20,109 nt of DNA from a virus. Where the stretch lies: positions 1 to 20,109 of the IMG/VR virus record IMGVR_UViG_3300032117_000194; one strand, written 5' to 3'. The notes under the pieces are model-generated. The model was given only the letters and a program-made list of their open reading frames with translations. It did no database searches and was not told the DNA's origin. Positions 3,732-12,005 of this stretch are shown here, piece after piece (within the stretch, counting starts at the first letter, position 1; every line of letters starts with the position of its first letter). Both the position numbers and the translations under genes were made by a program.

Positions 3732-3739
3732 TTAAATAC
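3732..3739 (+). promoter_or_regulatory. Late-promoter-like box TTAAATAC upstream of terminase
   Basis: The TAAATA core (3733-3738) resembles the T4 late promoter TATAAATA recognised by gp55. The terminase ATG follows after only 5 bases and no Shine-Dalgarno sequence is present, so transcription would begin at or next to the start codon. This is a sequence match only. Confidence 0.45.
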
Positions 3740-3743
3740 AATT

Positions 3744-5306
3744 ATGGCCTTTGACGCAAGCTCGCTAGCTAAAACCCCCCACAAACAACAAGTTTGGACT
3801 GAACAACAGCTCAAAGAATTCGCTCTTTGTGCTGATCCAGTAACCGGCCCAGAATATTTTATGGATCATTTCTTCTATATCCAGCATCCGGTTAGAGGGA
3901 AAATGCAGTATCATCCTTTTGAGTATCAAGAGCGATTAATTAACACTTATCACAATTATCGTTTTAGTATTTCTATGATGCCACGACAAACAGGTAAGTC
4001 TACATCAGCCGCAGGTTACTTGCTATGGTATGCAATGTTTGTTCCAGATTCCACAGTTCTAATTGCCGCACACAAGTATGACGGCTCCCAAGAAATTATG
4101 ACTCGTGTGCGATATGCGTATGAAATGTGTCCTGATCATATTCGCGCTGGCGCCACAAACTATAATAAAGGCTCTATAGAATTTGAAAACGGTTCACGCA
4201 TTGTGTCGGCAACAACTACAGAAAACACAGGTCGTGGTATGTCTATATCACTATTATATTGTGATGAGTTCGCATTCGTTCGACCTAGCGTAGCACAAGA
4301 ATTTTGGACTTCAATTTCGCCAACACTAGCAACTGGTGGTAAATGTATTATTACATCTACACCTAACTCAGACGAAGATCAATTTGCGCTGTTATGGAAA
4401 GGCGCTCTTAAAATGGAAGATTCACACGGTAATCCACAAGAAGTAGGCATCAATGGTTTCCGTGCTTTCCGTAGCTATTGGAGAGAACATCCAGACAGAG
4501 ATGACGCTTGGGCTGCGGCGCAACGAGCACAATTAGGTGAAGACCGTTTCCGTCGCGAGATGGATTGCGAATTTATTATTAACGATGAGACGCTAATCGC
4601 GCCGGCTAAACTCATAGACTTAGAGGGAATGGAGCCTATACACCGTACAGCACAAGTTCGTTGGTATAAACAACCTGAGCCTGGCAGAATGTATTGCGTA
4701 GGTCTAGATCCATCATTAGGTACTGGCGGCGATCCTGCTGCCATACAAATTTTTGAAGCAAACACCACAGAGCAAATAGGTGAGTGGAAACACAACAGAA
4801 CACCTATTCCAGAGCAAATTCGCATACTTGCGGACATTGTCAAATACATTTATACTATTGTTAAAGACGAAGAATCAGTTTATTATTCTGTAGAAAATAA
4901 TACCATTGGCGAAGCGGCACTTATATCCATTGATCAGTTTGGAGAAGAAAATATTAAAGGCTATTTCTTGTCAGATCCTACCAGAGGAGCCGGCAGGTAT
5001 CGTAAAGGTTTCAACACTAGCCCTAAAAACAAACTTACAGCTTGTGCTAAATTAAAAACATTAATTGAAACAAATAAAATGAAATTACGCAGTCGTCCAT
5101 TAATTTCTGAACTAAAAACATTCGTGGCCAACGGGGTTAGTTATGCGGCAAAACCAGGCAGTACCGACGACTTAGTTATGGCTACATTGCTGGTTACACG
5201 CATGATGATATTACTTCAAACTTACCATCCAGAAATGGATACGCAAATGCGTGATTTCGGGGAAAGTATTACCCCGCCGTTGCCCTTTATTTCAACAATG
5301 TATTAA
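3744..5306 (+). CDS. 17: Terminase large subunit, ATPase and nuclease (gp17)
   Basis: This 520-residue packaging motor powers translocation of DNA into the prohead and cuts concatemers. Visible motifs: Walker A MPRQTGKST (79-87), Walker B LLYCDEFAF (170-178, Asp174/Glu175), the coupling motif IITSTPN (202-208), then an RNase H-fold nuclease domain with VGLDPSLGTG (319-328, Asp322), SVENN (382-386, Glu384) and the late acidic STDDLVMA (473-480). These match the order in T4 gp17, although the protein is about 90 residues shorter, mostly at the N-terminus. The start ATG has no ribosome site but sits 5 bases after a TAAATA box. The flanking genes are not the T4 neighbours gp16 and gp18, so gene order is rearranged here. 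Confidence 0.95.
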   Translation: MAFDASSLAKTPHKQQVWTEQQLKEFALCADPVTGPEYFMDHFFYIQHPVRGKMQYHPFEYQERLINTYHNYRFSISMMPRQTGKSTSAAGYLLWYAMFVPDSTVLIAAHKYDGSQEIMTRVRYAYEMCPDHIRAGATNYNKGSIEFENGSRIVSATTTENTGRGMSISLLYCDEFAFVRPSVAQEFWTSISPTLATGGKCIITSTPNSDEDQFALLWKGALKMEDSHGNPQEVGINGFRAFRSYWREHPDRDDAWAAAQRAQLGEDRFRREMDCEFIINDETLIAPAKLIDLEGMEPIHRTAQVRWYKQPEPGRMYCVGLDPSLGTGGDPAAIQIFEANTTEQIGEWKHNRTPIPEQIRILADIVKYIYTIVKDEESVYYSVENNTIGEAALISIDQFGEENIKGYFLSDPTRGAGRYRKGFNTSPKNKLTACAKLKTLIETNKMKLRSRPLISELKTFVANGVSYAAKPGSTDDLVMATLLVTRMMILLQTYHPEMDTQMRDFGESITPPLPFISTMY

Positions 5307-5316
5307 ATTAAAAATA

Positions 5317-5328
5317 GCTAAATAATAT
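5317..5328 (+). promoter_or_regulatory. Late-promoter-like box GCTAAATAATAT
   Basis: The TAAATA core is at 5319-5324, and the ATG of the 755-residue protein follows after 7 bases without a Shine-Dalgarno sequence. The same 12 bases recur at 20026-20037 before the last gene of the window, which supports a shared regulatory element. Confidence 0.55.
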
Positions 5329-5331
5329 ACC

Positions 5332-7599
5332 ATGGCAGAAAACAACGCTAACCAGAAATTAAACGACTTACTCATTAGTAAGAATTTTGACCCGCAGTCA
5401 TTAGATAGTATGGGCAAACCTGCCCCATCTCCAGAACAAGCTGATTTATTTTCTTTTGATTACAAAGGTGAATCAGGACAAAACTATGGCACAGTAGTTG
5501 TGATGCTTACCGAAGACAATAATCTAAATGTTTACTTTGGCGATAATATTGGTAAAAGTATGGAAGGCGATGACAAAAAAGGTTGGTTTGACTTTTTATA
5601 TCAATTGCGTATGTTTGCCAAGAGAAATTTATTAAGTTTCTCATTACAGAATTTAAACAAATTAAAATACAGTATGCAAGGTCAAGCCGCAATTAGCGAA
5701 GGCTTATTTGAATCTTGGGCTGGCACAAAAACTCAATCATGGAATGGCGCAGAAACTGAAGCTAGACTAATGATTAAACATAAACGAGCTATTGGCGAGA
5801 ATGATGCTCGCTTCCGTTATGTAGAATCTTTATTTGTAGAGACAGCCGAAGGTGAACGCTATAAATTGCCGTTTACAAAATTATCAGCTGGTCGTGCTAT
5901 GGTAGAACACGTGCGTCAAGGTGGTAAGCCTTACGATATTCGCGGACAACATATTGCTACTATTGTTGAAGAAATGAATTTATTAAGTCGTTTCCGTCGT
6001 GCCAATCAAGGTAAAATCTTTGAAGGTGAAACACAGCACTTAGTAGAACAAGCTACACATTATTACGAAACATTACAAAGTAATCTAAAAAGTTTAAGTA
6101 CAAAAAATGGTTACGCAAAGTATTTTGAAGGTTGGGATCCAGCCGCATTAAGTGACGAAGATGTTATTATCGAAGATTTGCGTCATATGTTTGTGGAACA
6201 AAACATAGATTCACGCATCGAGCAAGCACTACCATTATTGGCAAAATTACAACGGGAACAAAGCATGAAAGAAGCTAACATATTTGAAAATTGGGCAAAC
6301 CTTATTCTTGAAGGTACTTGGGCAGTTCCGGATACTAAAGAGAAACAAGCTCAACTAGTTAGCTTGCTTAGTCAAGAATTACCAGTAGGTCCTGATGCTA
6401 CTAATGCTACAGAACTATTATATGACTTGTTAGGCGATGACGAATTGTTTGACCGTTTAGAAGAATTGGCTGAACAAGATGCCAATGCCGACGCTCGTGA
6501 AATTATTCTTTCTCGTTTGGAACAATTAAAAAGCAATCCAGCTATAGCACAAGTTATTGGACAATTAAAGAACCCAATCCCAGATTCACAAGAACCAGTT
6601 CAAGAGCGCATTAAAGATCCACACACACAAACAGAAGATCCACCAAATACACAGCAACCAGAAGTTACTCCTAATATGCTAGACGAATTAAGTCCAGACA
6701 CATTAGGTAGCTATGTTAAGCGAGCAAGCTCTGACCGTGCTATGAAAAACTTCGACCAAGGTGTAGATATGGGCGTTTCATATGGCGAACGTCAACCAAA
6801 ATTTGACGCAGAAAAAGATCGGCAAGATAACAATCGCCGTCGTGGTATTCATAAGGCAGTTAATCGTTTAGTTAAAGAAGGCGCAATGAACGAAGTAGAT
6901 ATTTTACTACAAGATATTGCTCGCAACAATGTTGATATCTACAATATCTATGCTAATCCAAAAACTAATGTAGAAAAATTTGTAAGTAAACAAATTCATG
7001 ATAAAATTGACGAGATTACATTCGAAACTGGATTACATCCAAAAGACGACATTGATAAAATATTACAAATAATTTATGATGATATAGCCAAAGACTATGA
7101 CGTCGACGAAGGCGCTATTGGTAAAGGATTGGGATTGATTGCCGGCGAATTAATTGCTCCAGAAATTCCAGGTAGCGGAATGATAGGCGCACATATCGGT
7201 GATACATTAGGCGATAAATTGAGCAATATGATTAGCGGCAACAATGACGAAGTGGACGAAACCGCTAGTAGTACTGCTGACCAAATGAAACAAGTACAAG
7301 ATGAAATTGAAAAAATTGTCCGCTCGGGCGGTCGTGTGGGATTAAATGATCCGTTAAGTCAAAAGTTAAAAGCACTTAAAGATAAGTTACATTCTGCCAA
7401 AGAAGTTAACGAAAATACAGCGTTAACTGGCCCGTACGGACACTCTGGCAAATTAGAACCAGTCGAAGGCACTGACGAAGATATGATGGCAAGAATTAAG
7501 TTCTTAGCAGGAATCAGAGAAACCGACGCACCAACCGAAACTCAAGCAGATTCCAATTTAACTACCATGAAATCTGTCAGTTCCATCTTCCTTAGATAA
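5332..7599 (+). CDS. Large conserved phage protein of unknown function (755 aa), glycine zipper near the C-terminus
   Basis: I recognise this as the kind of long protein conserved in environmental T4-like phages, but no function is established that I can name. The N-terminal half (about 1-310) is globular, with NYGTVVVMLTEDNNLNVYFG, WFDFLYQLRMFAKRNLL and ETAEGERYKLPFTKL segments. The middle is acidic and helical with a Pro/Gln-rich linker (about 415-450). The C-terminal part has a Gly-rich amphipathic stretch (GKGLGLIAGELIAPEIPG, about 602-619, and GMIGAHIGDTLGDKL) like the zippers in the first gene, and ends with an ARIKFLAGI motif. No nucleotide-binding or catalytic signature is seen. It lacks a ribosome site and relies on a TAAATA box. 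A virion or injected-protein role is inferred from its late-type promoter. Confidence 0.8.
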   Translation: MAENNANQKLNDLLISKNFDPQSLDSMGKPAPSPEQADLFSFDYKGESGQNYGTVVVMLTEDNNLNVYFGDNIGKSMEGDDKKGWFDFLYQLRMFAKRNLLSFSLQNLNKLKYSMQGQAAISEGLFESWAGTKTQSWNGAETEARLMIKHKRAIGENDARFRYVESLFVETAEGERYKLPFTKLSAGRAMVEHVRQGGKPYDIRGQHIATIVEEMNLLSRFRRANQGKIFEGETQHLVEQATHYYETLQSNLKSLSTKNGYAKYFEGWDPAALSDEDVIIEDLRHMFVEQNIDSRIEQALPLLAKLQREQSMKEANIFENWANLILEGTWAVPDTKEKQAQLVSLLSQELPVGPDATNATELLYDLLGDDELFDRLEELAEQDANADAREIILSRLEQLKSNPAIAQVIGQLKNPIPDSQEPVQERIKDPHTQTEDPPNTQQPEVTPNMLDELSPDTLGSYVKRASSDRAMKNFDQGVDMGVSYGERQPKFDAEKDRQDNNRRRGIHKAVNRLVKEGAMNEVDILLQDIARNNVDIYNIYANPKTNVEKFVSKQIHDKIDEITFETGLHPKDDIDKILQIIYDDIAKDYDVDEGAIGKGLGLIAGELIAPEIPGSGMIGAHIGDTLGDKLSNMISGNNDEVDETASSTADQMKQVQDEIEKIVRSGGRVGLNDPLSQKLKALKDKLHSAKEVNENTALTGPYGHSGKLEPVEGTDEDMMARIKFLAGIRETDAPTETQADSNLTTMKSVSSIFLR

Positions 7600-7602
7600 A
7601 TA
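7596..7602 (+). promoter_or_regulatory. Late-promoter-like ATAAATA overlapping the upstream stop codon
   Basis: ATAAATA is close to the T4 late consensus and lies about 155 bases before gp32. T4 gene 32 also has several promoters, including late ones, so a late source of gp32 mRNA is plausible. No transcript evidence is available. Confidence 0.35.
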
Positions 7603-7620
7603 AGTATTAGAAAGCAATAA

Positions 7621-7756
7621 TCGGCAACATTAATAAGGCAACTTAACCAGTTTAGTAGTAAACACAGACAGTCCTGTGTATAATAAAGACTGTAGGCAAC
7701 TTTAATCTAGTAACATAGATAGGCATCACATTTTATAATTTGAAAGGCAACTTAAA
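7621..7756 (+). repeat. Four GGCAAC-[TA]T-TAA repeats in the gp32 leader
   Basis: GGCAAC followed by an AU-rich T(T)TAA-type tail occurs four times: near 7622 (GGCAACATTAA), 7637 (GGCAACTTAA), 7695 (GGCAACTTTAA) and 7747 (GGCAACTTAA, just before the ATG). The final copy supplies AAGG as a weak ribosome site. The T-even gene 32 leader also has short UUAAA-type repeats that bind gp32, so these may be operator subsites. That function is inferred. Confidence 0.55.
7662..7693 (+). promoter_or_regulatory. Predicted H-type RNA pseudoknot in the gp32 leader (autoregulatory operator)
   Basis: Stem 1 pairs ACACAG (7662-7667) with CTGTGT (7674-7679). The loop CAGTC (7669-7673) pairs with GACTG (7688-7692), leaving a 1-base loop 1 (A7668) and an 8-base AT-rich loop 2. 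The two stems abut, so they could stack coaxially. T-even gene 32 leaders carry an H-type pseudoknot with the same plan (1-base loop 1, about 7-base loop 2) roughly 40-70 bases before the start, where it nucleates gp32 binding that represses translation. Here it ends 63 bases before the gp32 ATG and is followed by little-structured AU-rich RNA. The pairing is read directly from the sequence; the regulatory role is by analogy. Confidence 0.65.
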
Positions 7757-8746
7757 ATGGCATCATTAGCAGAAATCAGAGCCCGCTTACAAGCGGCAGA
7801 AGGTAATAAACAAGGCGGTAATTCACAAGGCGACCAAGCAATTTATCCACATTGGTCAATTGACGAAGGTCAAAATGCCACACTCCGCTTCCTCCCAGAC
7901 GGTAATACAAAAAACACATTCTTTTGGCAAGAACGAGCAATGATTCGTTTACCATTTAGTGGTGTTAAGGGAGAATTAGAATCCAAACAAGTACAAGTTC
8001 GTGTTCCATGCGTTGAGATGTGGGGCGAGACTTGCCCAATCTTGTCAGAAGTACGCACATGGTTTAAAGATCCAGCGTTGGAAGATATGGGTCGTAAGTA
8101 TTGGAAAAAGCGTGATTACATTTTCCAAGGCTTTGTTCGTGAGAACCCATTGTCAGATGACAAGGCTCCAGAAAATCCAATTCGCCGTTTCATTATCGGC
8201 CCACAAATCTTCACACTTATCAAAGGTGCGTTGATGGATCCAGAGTTGGAAGAATTACCAACAGACTATTTAAAAGGTCTTGACTTCCGTATCTCTAAAG
8301 GTAGCAAAGGCGGCTTCGCTGACTATTCAGGCTCTAAGTGGGCTCGTAAAGAATCAGCACTAACAGAAGCTGAACAAGCGGCTATTGAACAATATGGTTT
8401 GTTTGATTTATCAACATTCCTTCCAAAGAAACCAACTGATGTTGAGTTGAAAGTTATCAAGGAAATGTTCGAAGCATCAGTGGATGGTCAGAGCTATGAT
8501 GCTGAGCGTTGGGGTCAATACTATCGTCCAGCAGGAGTAAATGCTCCGGCAGGTACTTCAGCACCAGCGGCCATAGCAGAAGATGCTCCAGTAGCTAAAG
8601 CGGTGCCAGCGCCAGTAGCTTCTAGTTTTGATGAAGAAGATGATGTTCCTGTAACAAGTGCTCCAGTTTCAACTTCTGCGGCAACTTCGGACAAAGCGCA
8701 AGATATTTTGCAAATGATTAGAGCACGTCAACAAAAGACTGTTTAA
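7757..8746 (+). CDS. 32: Single-stranded DNA-binding protein gp32
   Basis: This 329-residue protein coats single-stranded DNA during replication, recombination and repair and interacts with UvsX, UvsY and the replisome. Recognisable segments are the N-terminal cooperative region SLAEIRARLQ, the OB-fold region with LRFLPDGN (43-50), TFFWQER and the KYWKKRDYIFQGFV stretch (114-127) that matches T4-like gp32 proteins. The tail is acidic (SSFDEEDDVP) and then ends in a basic helix DILQMIRARQQK. Only two cysteines (Cys85 and Cys93) are visible near the T4 zinc site, and no His/Cys4 set is apparent, so the zinc site looks incomplete. It has a structured leader with a pseudoknot and heads the recombination operon. 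Confidence 0.93.
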   Translation: MASLAEIRARLQAAEGNKQGGNSQGDQAIYPHWSIDEGQNATLRFLPDGNTKNTFFWQERAMIRLPFSGVKGELESKQVQVRVPCVEMWGETCPILSEVRTWFKDPALEDMGRKYWKKRDYIFQGFVRENPLSDDKAPENPIRRFIIGPQIFTLIKGALMDPELEELPTDYLKGLDFRISKGSKGGFADYSGSKWARKESALTEAEQAAIEQYGLFDLSTFLPKKPTDVELKVIKEMFEASVDGQSYDAERWGQYYRPAGVNAPAGTSAPAAIAEDAPVAKAVPAPVASSFDEEDDVPVTSAPVSTSAATSDKAQDILQMIRARQQKTV

Positions 8747-9423
8747 TGACCGTAGCTTTTGTCTATAAATGGACTCACATACCGACCTTAAAGTGGTATG
8801 TGGGTTCCAGAACCGCCGAAGGCTGCCATCCAGATGATGGGTATATCGCATCGGCTAAATTACTGAGAAAGCATATCTTAGAAAATAAAGAAGAGTGGAA
8901 ACGAGAAGTCATCAGTATCGATAGTGTTAAAAATGTATTAGATCTAGAAACAGAAATCTTACAAATGTTTGACGCAAGACACGATCCTAGAAGTTGGAAT
9001 CGACACAACAATGATGGCATAATCGTAATCACAGGCGATAAAAATCCAATGAAAGATCCAGAAGTGGCACAACTAGTAGCAAATGCTATTCGTGGTGATA
9101 ATCACTGGACCCACAACTTAGATGGTAAAGAACATCCGCAAAGAGGACAAAAGCGACCAACAATAACGGGCGACAATCATCCAAATAAAGATCCAATAAA
9201 TGCTGCTAAGATTAGTAAAAGTCATACAGGTAAACGACATGAATACATGGACGGCAAAAAAAATATTATGCATCGTGAAGAAGTATTAGCGCAATTATCG
9301 GGCGGCAATCATTGGGTGAATAAAATTGAAAACCGGTTGACTTGTGAACATTGCGGCATTACAATAATGAAAAGCAATTACACTCGTTGGCACAGCAAGA
9401 ATTGTAAATTTAAAAAGGAATAA
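8746..9423 (+). CDS. GIY-YIG-like free-standing homing endonuclease (Seg-type)
   Basis: This 225-residue protein overlaps the gp32 stop by one base (TAATG). The N-terminus has a degenerate GIY-YIG core: VYKWTH for GIY, WYVGSRT for YIG with the catalytic-type Arg, a GCHPDDGYIASAK loop and a Glu in DLETEILQMF. The C-terminal half holds NUMOD3-like DNA-binding repeats (GDKNPMKDPEVAQ, GDNHPNKDP, KISKSHTGKRH). It ends with a Cys/His finger, CEHCGITIMKSNYTRWHSKNC in outline (Cys-x2-Cys then His/Cys). Such enzymes cut phage lineages lacking them and spread by repair. It is a selfish insertion between gp32 and uvsX. Whether it is active is unknown. Confidence 0.8.
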   Translation: MTVAFVYKWTHIPTLKWYVGSRTAEGCHPDDGYIASAKLLRKHILENKEEWKREVISIDSVKNVLDLETEILQMFDARHDPRSWNRHNNDGIIVITGDKNPMKDPEVAQLVANAIRGDNHWTHNLDGKEHPQRGQKRPTITGDNHPNKDPINAAKISKSHTGKRHEYMDGKKNIMHREEVLAQLSGGNHWVNKIENRLTCEHCGITIMKSNYTRWHSKNCKFKKE

Positions 9424-10744: not shown

Positions 10745-11196
10745 TGTGGTATAGTCGTGTAACAGCCGATTTGGGTGCGATACCAGATTTTATTGCACAC
10801 TATGAAACTGAACTCGAAGATGCTAAACGGGAATGCCGGGTAGGTGGTTTGATTGAAAAAAATATTACTGCTTTACCTGGTATTACTGAACACAGGTTCA
10901 ATCAGCTTCAAGAAATTGAAGCGGTATTGAATTATCTTAATATACAATTACGCAAAATTCGTCGTAAGCATTTTCAAAAGTATTTGGAAGGATATGCTCG
11001 TGCGTTAACTAGTCGCGATGCTGAAAAATATGTAGATGGTGAAGACGAAGTTATTGATTTCGAAACACTCATCAATGAAGTAGCATTGTTACGCAATCGC
11101 TATCTCGGTATTATGAAAGCTATGGAATCTAAAAACTTTATGTTAGGTCATATTGTTAGACTCAGAGCAGCAGGAATGGAAGATATACAGGTATAA
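10744..11196 (+). CDS. uvsY: UvsY recombination mediator
   Basis: This 150-residue protein would load UvsX onto gp32-coated single-stranded DNA. Identification rests on its size (T4 UvsY is 137), helical Lys/Arg-rich content (LNIQLRKIRRKHFQKYLEG) and a C-terminal pattern ALLRNRYLGIMKAMESKNF with MLGHIVRLRAAGME, which matches the T4 C-terminal LDAIKSRGFAIKHIQDMRA segment. It sits in the expected place downstream of uvsX. Its start overlaps the previous stop. No ATPase motif is present, as expected. Confidence 0.85.
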   Translation: MWYSRVTADLGAIPDFIAHYETELEDAKRECRVGGLIEKNITALPGITEHRFNQLQEIEAVLNYLNIQLRKIRRKHFQKYLEGYARALTSRDAEKYVDGEDEVIDFETLINEVALLRNRYLGIMKAMESKNFMLGHIVRLRAAGMEDIQV

Positions 11197-11197
11197 A

Positions 11198-11950
11198 ATG
11201 TTTAGAAACGAAGACGAAGCACATCAACATAGTTTACAGATTCTCAATCACTTAGCCCAATATGAAGATTTTATGATGTCTATTAAGACATTAGCTGATA
11301 TTGGGTGTGGCACTGGTCGAGATTTAGAATGGTGGGCCACTAGAACTACAAGCGGAGATAGACCTTCACCTCTCAATATACAATGTCAAGGTATAGATAT
11401 TGTAGAGAGTTTGCCAATGGCACATCAATATACCAATATCACTTATCAGAAAGTAGATTTTGAATCAAGTATCTATCCACCGCCTGATAAATTTGATGTA
11501 TTGTGGTGTCATAATTCATTTCAATATGCGCTCAATCCAATTCAAACATTAATCAATTGGCGAGACATTACTTCGCCTGGGGCTATGTTAGCCTTGGCCA
11601 TCCCACAAACAACTAATATACATCATAAAGATTTAGATTTTAGTCAACAGGATGGATGTTACTATCACTATACTTTAGTTAACTTAATTCATATGTTAGC
11701 GGTAGCAGGGTGGGATTGTAAATCTGGATTTTTTAAACGAGATCCTATTGATAATTGGTTATATGTTGTGGTGTACAAAAGCGAAACGGCTCCCTTTGAT
11801 CCTAAAACTGTTCGTTGGTACGACTTAGTTGACGCTAAACTATTACCTGATTCTGCTGATAAATCAGTATTGGCAAGAGGCTATTTGCATCAGCAAGATT
11901 TAGTCCTGCCTTGGCTAGACAAGAGTTTAACTTGGTTGGGCGCACAGTAA
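11198..11950 (+). CDS. Class I SAM-dependent methyltransferase
   Basis: I chose the ATG at 11198 (one base after the uvsY stop); an in-frame ATG at 11153 lies inside uvsY and would add 15 residues. The 250-residue protein has the SAM motif I LADIGCGTGRDLE (about 31-43), an acidic motif II in QGIDIVESLP and a motif IV-like FDVLWCHNSFQYALNP, typical of type 11/12 small-molecule or RNA/protein methyltransferases. The target is not evident. No DPPY-type motif of DNA amino-methyltransferases or PC motif of cytosine enzymes is visible. It ends the recombination operon, which terminates at 11977-12000. Confidence 0.8.
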   Translation: MFRNEDEAHQHSLQILNHLAQYEDFMMSIKTLADIGCGTGRDLEWWATRTTSGDRPSPLNIQCQGIDIVESLPMAHQYTNITYQKVDFESSIYPPPDKFDVLWCHNSFQYALNPIQTLINWRDITSPGAMLALAIPQTTNIHHKDLDFSQQDGCYYHYTLVNLIHMLAVAGWDCKSGFFKRDPIDNWLYVVVYKSETAPFDPKTVRWYDLVDAKLLPDSADKSVLARGYLHQQDLVLPWLDKSLTWLGAQ

Positions 11951-11976
11951 TTCGTTGTATTAAAACAACACATTTG

Positions 11977-12000
11977 ACCCCCGTTTTTAGGGGGTTTTTT
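11977..12000 (+). terminator. Rho-independent terminator after the methyltransferase gene
   Basis: ACCCCC (11977-11982) pairs with GGGGGT (11990-11995) around a 7-base loop GTTTTTA, followed by a run of T. It is a compact, GC-rich stem in an AT-rich genome and closes the gp32-methyltransferase operon. Confidence 0.9.
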
Positions 12001-12005
12001 GTAGG

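Follow-up and report, generated by a model that had tools for sequence, protein, structure and literature searches.

Autoregulation of gene 32 through pseudoknots in the mRNA leader is established for phages T4 and RB69 (PMC535899, PMC3014915). In the T4 operator the pseudoknot nucleates binding of gp32, the single-stranded DNA-binding protein (SSB), and UUAAA repeats then allow the protein to spread (PMC535899, PMC3014915). A pseudoknot has been reported in T2, T4 and RB69, RB49 is reported to lack one, and a 2010 review urged that diverse T4-related phages be examined (PMC3014915). The extension of this control beyond the T-even phages is a standing question, which is addressed here by a pseudoknot in the SSB gene leader of IMG/VR virus record IMGVR_UViG_3300032117_000194 (positions 1 to 20,109; this 20,109-base stretch is referred to as the window). 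A covariation-supported pseudoknot, with no sequence relation to that of T4, precedes a gp32-fold SSB gene in dozens of uncultured phages. Our literature search found no report of such a knot for this phage group.

The element is of the H type and lies at 7662-7693 on the plus strand, as do the other leader features and the SSB gene of the window described below. Stem 1 pairs ACACAG (7662-7667) with CTGTGT (7674-7679), stem 2 pairs ACAGTC (7668-7673) with GACTGT (7688-7693), and the eight nucleotides of the AT-rich loop 3, ATAATAAA, occupy 7680-7687; the two stems abut without a gap. Stem 2 had first been read as 5 bp, CAGTC (7669-7673) with GACTG (7688-7692), so that A7668 forms a one-nucleotide loop 1 and the string over 7662-7692 runs ACACAG-A-CAGTC-CTGTGT-ATAATAAA-GACTG. 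Pairing of A7668 with T7693 can extend the stem to 6 bp, leaving no loop 1. The end of the knot is 63 nt from the SSB start codon at 7757. A strict finder (stem 1 of at least 6 bp, loop 1 of at most 1 nt, stem 2 of at least 5 bp, no gap, loop 3 of 5-10 nt, G-U pairs excluded) returned this as the sole knot on both strands of the window, and the same definition was matched in 6 of 3000 dinucleotide-shuffled versions of the SSB leader. Ordinary nested folding did not set the leader apart from background (z 0.19), and an Rfam cmscan of the window, with E-values up to 10, gave no family at 7600-7760. The initial annotation had described the stems, the one-base loop, the eight-base AT-rich loop and the 63-base spacing just as they stand in the sequence. 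Its judgement that the arrangement was unlikely to be chance is borne out by this rarity and by compensatory change in relatives: the leaders of gp32 homologues, where it had proposed looking for covariation, show such change in stem 2 and at pair 5 of stem 1.

To sample relatives, SSB genes and their leaders were gathered from viral contigs by protein search and by DNA pattern, giving 346 distinct leaders. About 70 of the relatives' leaders carry the knot, nearly always as a single copy 5' of the SSB gene. Four contigs of 110-200 kb each gave one pattern match, always at the SSB gene. Among distinct pattern hits, stem 2 reached at least 5 bp in 38 of the 41 located 5' of an SSB gene and in 12 of the 34 found elsewhere, two of which are leader duplications. 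These duplications are seen in L107 (9618 bases) and L167 (4479 bases), both on the reverse strand, where two tandem knots lie 714 and 559 nt apart, respectively. In both, the first knot precedes a gene inserted beside the SSB gene and the two knots differ in stem 2, a pattern suggesting that the leader was duplicated when the gene was inserted.

Stem 2 takes many forms in these leaders: ACAGTC/GACTGT, ACAAGG/CCTTGT, CCAAG/CTTGG, CCTAG/CTAGG, CTTAG/CTAAG, ACAAC/GTTGT, ACAGC/GCTGT, ACGAC/GTCGT, ACAGT/ACTGT and CAGTG/CACTG. Aligning every knot type together with MAFFT (A1, A2) misplaced gaps in stem 2, and two gap-free sets and a permutation test were therefore used. When nine stem 2 types were re-paired in all 362,880 possible ways, no other arrangement scored as well as the true matching of 5' and 3' arms. 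In the gap-free alignment A3, both sides had changed in 19 cells over five base pairs, four of them among the six pairs of stem 2, and the covariation score was 0.332, compared with 0.085 ± 0.022 for shuffled alignments and at most 0.177 with slid partners. The second set, A4, contains fewer sequences and agrees (five cells, two pairs). In stem 1, the four outer pairs are nearly invariant, as is the sequence AUAAUNA of loop 3, an invariance partly imposed by the DNA-pattern scans, which require parts of both elements; stem 2 was free in both scans, and leaders from the protein search alone gave the same picture. The first pair of stem 1 changes from A-U to G-U in L538 and L068, pair 5 is A-U, G-C or U-A among relatives, and pair 6 forms in only part of the leaders, one lineage having GCACAT/ATGTGT. 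Adjoining stem 1 on its 5' side is a further conserved element, GTAGNAA (7655-7661). Since stem 2 varies on both sides whilst its pairing is kept, selection acts at the RNA level on the crossing pairing, and the pseudoknot is almost certainly a real RNA structure. A nested alternative upstream, CAGUUU/AGACUG, present in the minimum-energy fold, is not conserved: 8152 of 40,320 permutations were as good as its true pairing, versus one for stem 2.

The gene downstream of the knot (7757-8746) matches phrog_1192 with an E-value of 3.6e-67. T4 gp32 matches the same profile (PHROG 1192) at 3.5e-16, and PHROGs 1192 and 224 cross-match. An AlphaFold model of the window protein (pLDDT 72.5) gave six significant matches in the PDB, all of them RB69 or T4 gp32, with a core TM-score of 0.70 by target. 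On the strength of this model, the gene is one for an SSB of the gp32 fold.

How closely, then, does the knot resemble the T-even gene 32 operator? Both are H-type, with crossing, abutting stems, a very short loop 1 and a longer AU-rich loop, and both precede an SSB gene of the gp32 fold, within its leader. Both are also overlapped by a homing endonuclease open reading frame (ORF), segG in T4 (PMC535899) and an upstream ORF in relatives of the window; the latter, often with a Cys/His-rich endonuclease-like end, enters the knot in 20 of 69 leaders. The proportions differ. With the same finder, the T4 and RB69 knots have a stem 1 of 4-5 bp, a single A as loop 1, a stem 2 of 7 bp and a loop 3 of 5 nt (5-6 nt overall), and end 39-45 nt before the ATG. 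The window knot, with stems of 6 and 5-6 bp, a loop 1 of 0-1 nt, a loop 3 of 8 nt and a distance of 63 nt, falls outside these sizes, and the knot class as a whole has a stem 1 of 5-7 bp and a stem 2 of 5-6 bp. No sequence is shared between the T4 or RB69 knots and that of the window, and the TATAAT in loop 3 is a further difference from the T-even operator. Of the T-even-like geometry claimed in the initial annotation, the plan of crossing, abutting stems thus stands and the stem and loop proportions do not. Because sequence, stem sizes and downstream repeats all differ, the knot appears to resemble the T-even operator in its proposed working, and not to be that operator by descent or in detail. 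Two other systems are less close. The STAXI motif is likewise a pseudoknot found near SSB genes, but it occurs as two or three tandem copies with UUCG tetraloops and beside several kinds of gene (PMC2864571), whereas the knot here is single and has no such loop. The T4 gene 43 (DNA polymerase) operator is alike in proposed role, being an autogenous translational operator of a T4 replication protein, but is a simple hairpin bound by another protein (PMC3014915).

Between the knot and the start codon, the leader is weakly structured except for a small hairpin, ATCTA-GTAACA-TAGAT (7705-7720), and carries AGGCAAC repeats up to the ribosome-binding site. One copy lies directly 3' of the knot (7694-7700), a variant, AGGCATC, lies 3' of the hairpin (7721-7727), and a further copy adjoins the start codon (7745-7751), where AAAGG (7743-7747) is the likely Shine-Dalgarno sequence; the leader also has a copy 5' of the knot, at 7636-7642, and a GGCAAC at 7623-7628. 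In relatives the small hairpin is formed by other sequences, judged by eye (for example ATTTAAG/CTTAAAT). Across 343 leaders, the mean density of AGGC(A/T) repeats is 2.26 per 100 nt, compared with 0.47 in shuffles. As a separate observation, most of these 343 leaders, knot-free ones included, have AGGCAAC or AGGCA repeats 5' of the SSB start, usually two or three copies. In L431, whose SSB is 61% identical, the same knot is present and a run of UUAAA repeats stands between it and the start codon, an arrangement shared with the T4 operator; this leader is the closest bridge that we found between the two. We considered UUAAA repeats as a trait of the family and rejected this, as the run occurs in L431 only and its nearest relatives have neither the run nor the knot.

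The reading that we favour, at little better than an even chance, is that the knot is a putative nucleation site from which the SSB would repress its own translation, in the manner of T4 gene 32. We infer SSB binding, spreading and repression by analogy with that system. Messenger RNAs begun upstream of the knot would carry the folded pseudoknot. SSB in excess, not engaged on single-stranded DNA, would recognise it through the invariant stem 1 and the AU-rich loop, and could then spread cooperatively across the weakly structured stretch of AGGCAAC repeats to the ribosome-binding site. Translation of the SSB would be repressed until single-stranded DNA drew the protein away. Such a scheme would be the T4 gene 32 mechanism on an unrelated sequence, and the many natural variants of the knot offer material on how an SSB without sequence preference selects its own message.

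Several observations weigh against this. The region downstream of the knot has AGGCAAC/AGGCATC repeats and a small hairpin where the T4 operator has UUAAA, and the AGGCAAC repeats precede at least one other gene, with two copies 5' of a 108-aa ORF (L528:801-825). An RNA begun at the TATAAT in the loop would lack the knot altogether. On the SSB tree the knot is patchy: well supported branches alone demand at least eight gains or losses, and the whole tree requires 19, a count that is somewhat too high since the regular expression used for the tree overlooked a few knot leaders (L273, L329, L354). Many close relatives have a knot-free leader, and the whole leader can differ between close pairs (for example L155 and L019), which argues that the knot is dispensable for this SSB. 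Among leaders that do not belong to the knot class, 11 of 212 contain a pseudoknot, hardly more than the 0-5 of shuffled sets. The natural reading of the leader swapping is recombination, perhaps by homing with co-conversion. The initial annotation had proposed that autogenous control is conserved in a distant T4-like lineage; what can be retained is a real, covarying knot tied to a gp32-fold SSB, set against a sequence, stem proportions and repeats unlike those of T4 and the many knot-free close relatives. The TATAAT of loop 3, which makes a promoter a rival to autogenous control, had escaped it.

This possible promoter overlaps the knot and consists of TAGTAA (7656-7661), a spacer of 17 bp and TATAAT (7679-7684). 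In one alternative, which we hold to be possible though on the improbable side, the knot DNA is above all this promoter: the main SSB mRNA would start in or just after stem 2 and be knot-free, and the knot would fold solely in RNA arriving from upstream, either from the late promoter or from the endonuclease gene, and would insulate, process or silence that RNA without the SSB. In 48 non-redundant leaders, the T, G, A and A of TAGNAA, together with TATAAT, are near-invariant, and the 17-bp spacing is held by a compensating indel where stem 2 loses a base (the L242/L037 subtype). Within 260 nt, a second sigma70-like promoter is lacking from most leaders with the knot. Knot-free sister leaders have a strong TTGACR-17-TATACT promoter at the corresponding position, enclosed by a terminator-like hairpin, and the T4 gene 32 promoters themselves lie inside segG (PMC2988022). 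A promoter nevertheless leaves unexplained why its spacer and the bases 3' of the -10 element should change in a compensatory way, and its match to a -35 element is weak (three or four of six). L431 keeps the knot and loop despite departing from the TAGNAA/17-bp pattern. Moreover, nine of 72 leaders have a further promoter-like sequence 27-63 nt 5' of the knot, whose mRNA would include the knot, and they keep the AUAAU loop, which argues that the loop also matters in RNA. An overlapping promoter is thus likely enough to count as a serious rival or as a second role, but cannot alone explain stem 2. There is also a possible upstream source of knotted RNA to consider: ATAAATA (7596-7602), 60 nt 5' of the knot, is like the core of a T4 late promoter, and RNA from its expected start near 7608 would include the whole knot; among 269 leaders of relatives, 235 have TAAATA somewhere 5' of their final 60 nt. 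Both roles might be combined, and we entertain this tentatively, as a minority view. Messenger RNA from the knot's own TATAAT would be knot-free and uncontrolled, whilst mRNA started upstream, from the late promoter or by endonuclease read-through, would be knotted and repressed by the SSB, so that the choice of start site decides, and the cassette would spread with homing endonucleases.

It is rather unlikely that the knot instead acts independently of the SSB, controlling mRNA stability or initiation through some other factor that it binds (a ribosome, an RNase, a ligand or a different phage protein). An invariant stem 1 and loop with a variable stem 2 would also fit other pseudoknot regulators, RNase E cuts T4 gene 32 mRNA just 5' of the knot (PMC3014915), and the AGGCAAC repeats also stand before another gene; yet the knot is nearly exclusive to the SSB gene, its two copies elsewhere being leader duplications beside that gene, and the leader has no Rfam family match. 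Very improbable is a relic of coding or of a mobile element, left by homing endonucleases that had been inserted at this site, in which the conserved bases would be their C-terminal codons (VNTDxxVYN). The upstream ORF does pass through in this frame in the 20 of 69 leaders mentioned above, but the third positions of AAC, GAC, GTG, TAT and AAT are near-invariant, the one that is free (ACN) being pair 5 of stem 1, and on this evidence we rejected coding constraint. In addition, several unrelated endonuclease ends enter the same leader, the codons across stem 2 specify no conserved amino acids and some are stops, and in the window a stop in that frame lies just upstream. Chance complementarity can be practically discounted: crossings of 5-bp stems are common in AT-rich leaders, but the shuffles, the uniquely best permutation and the covariation in A3 speak against it, and the compensatory change refutes it.

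In L003, L004, L007 and many other leaders, such a sigma70-like TTGACR-17-TATACT promoter and its hairpin lie ∼60-130 nt before the SSB start, the hairpin having arms that vary yet remain complementary. With a promoter inside an intrinsic-terminator-like hairpin, RNA from upstream would stop where new RNA begins. That pseudoknots are general to all SSB leaders of the protein family was unsupported outside the knot class, except for a possible second, unrelated type in L404, L457 and L459. It lies 68-75 nt 5' of the start, directly 3' of a promoter-like sequence, with a stem 1 of 7-8 bp and a stem 2 of 7 bp, and shows a change from TAAGTAT/ATACTTA to TAAGTAA/TTACTTA. The leaders of the cultured relatives PA5oct, Phosso, Atu_ph07, CBB and Vibrio 2.275 are without the knot described here; that of PA5oct has a weaker pseudoknot candidate, without informative relatives. 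When the leader was compared by blastn with 50,697 phage records, the only matches were short and attributable to chance.

The genes of the window run terminase, virion gene, SSB, endonuclease-like gene, UvsX, UvsY and helicase, and place it as a T4-like myovirus on the PA5oct/Rak2/CBB side. The homing-endonuclease-like gene (8746-9423; PHROG 314, 7.8e-12) overlaps the SSB stop codon and is followed by uvsX. TAAATA late-promoter-like boxes (3733-3744 and 5319-5334) lie 5-7 nt 5' of the ATGs of the terminase and the next virion gene; with TAAATA so near the ATG and no Shine-Dalgarno sequence, their late mRNAs are possibly leaderless. Finally, a weak Trp_leader match, below the gathering score, lies at 11931-12003 after the ORF at 11153-11950, and ends in a terminator-like hairpin and T run.
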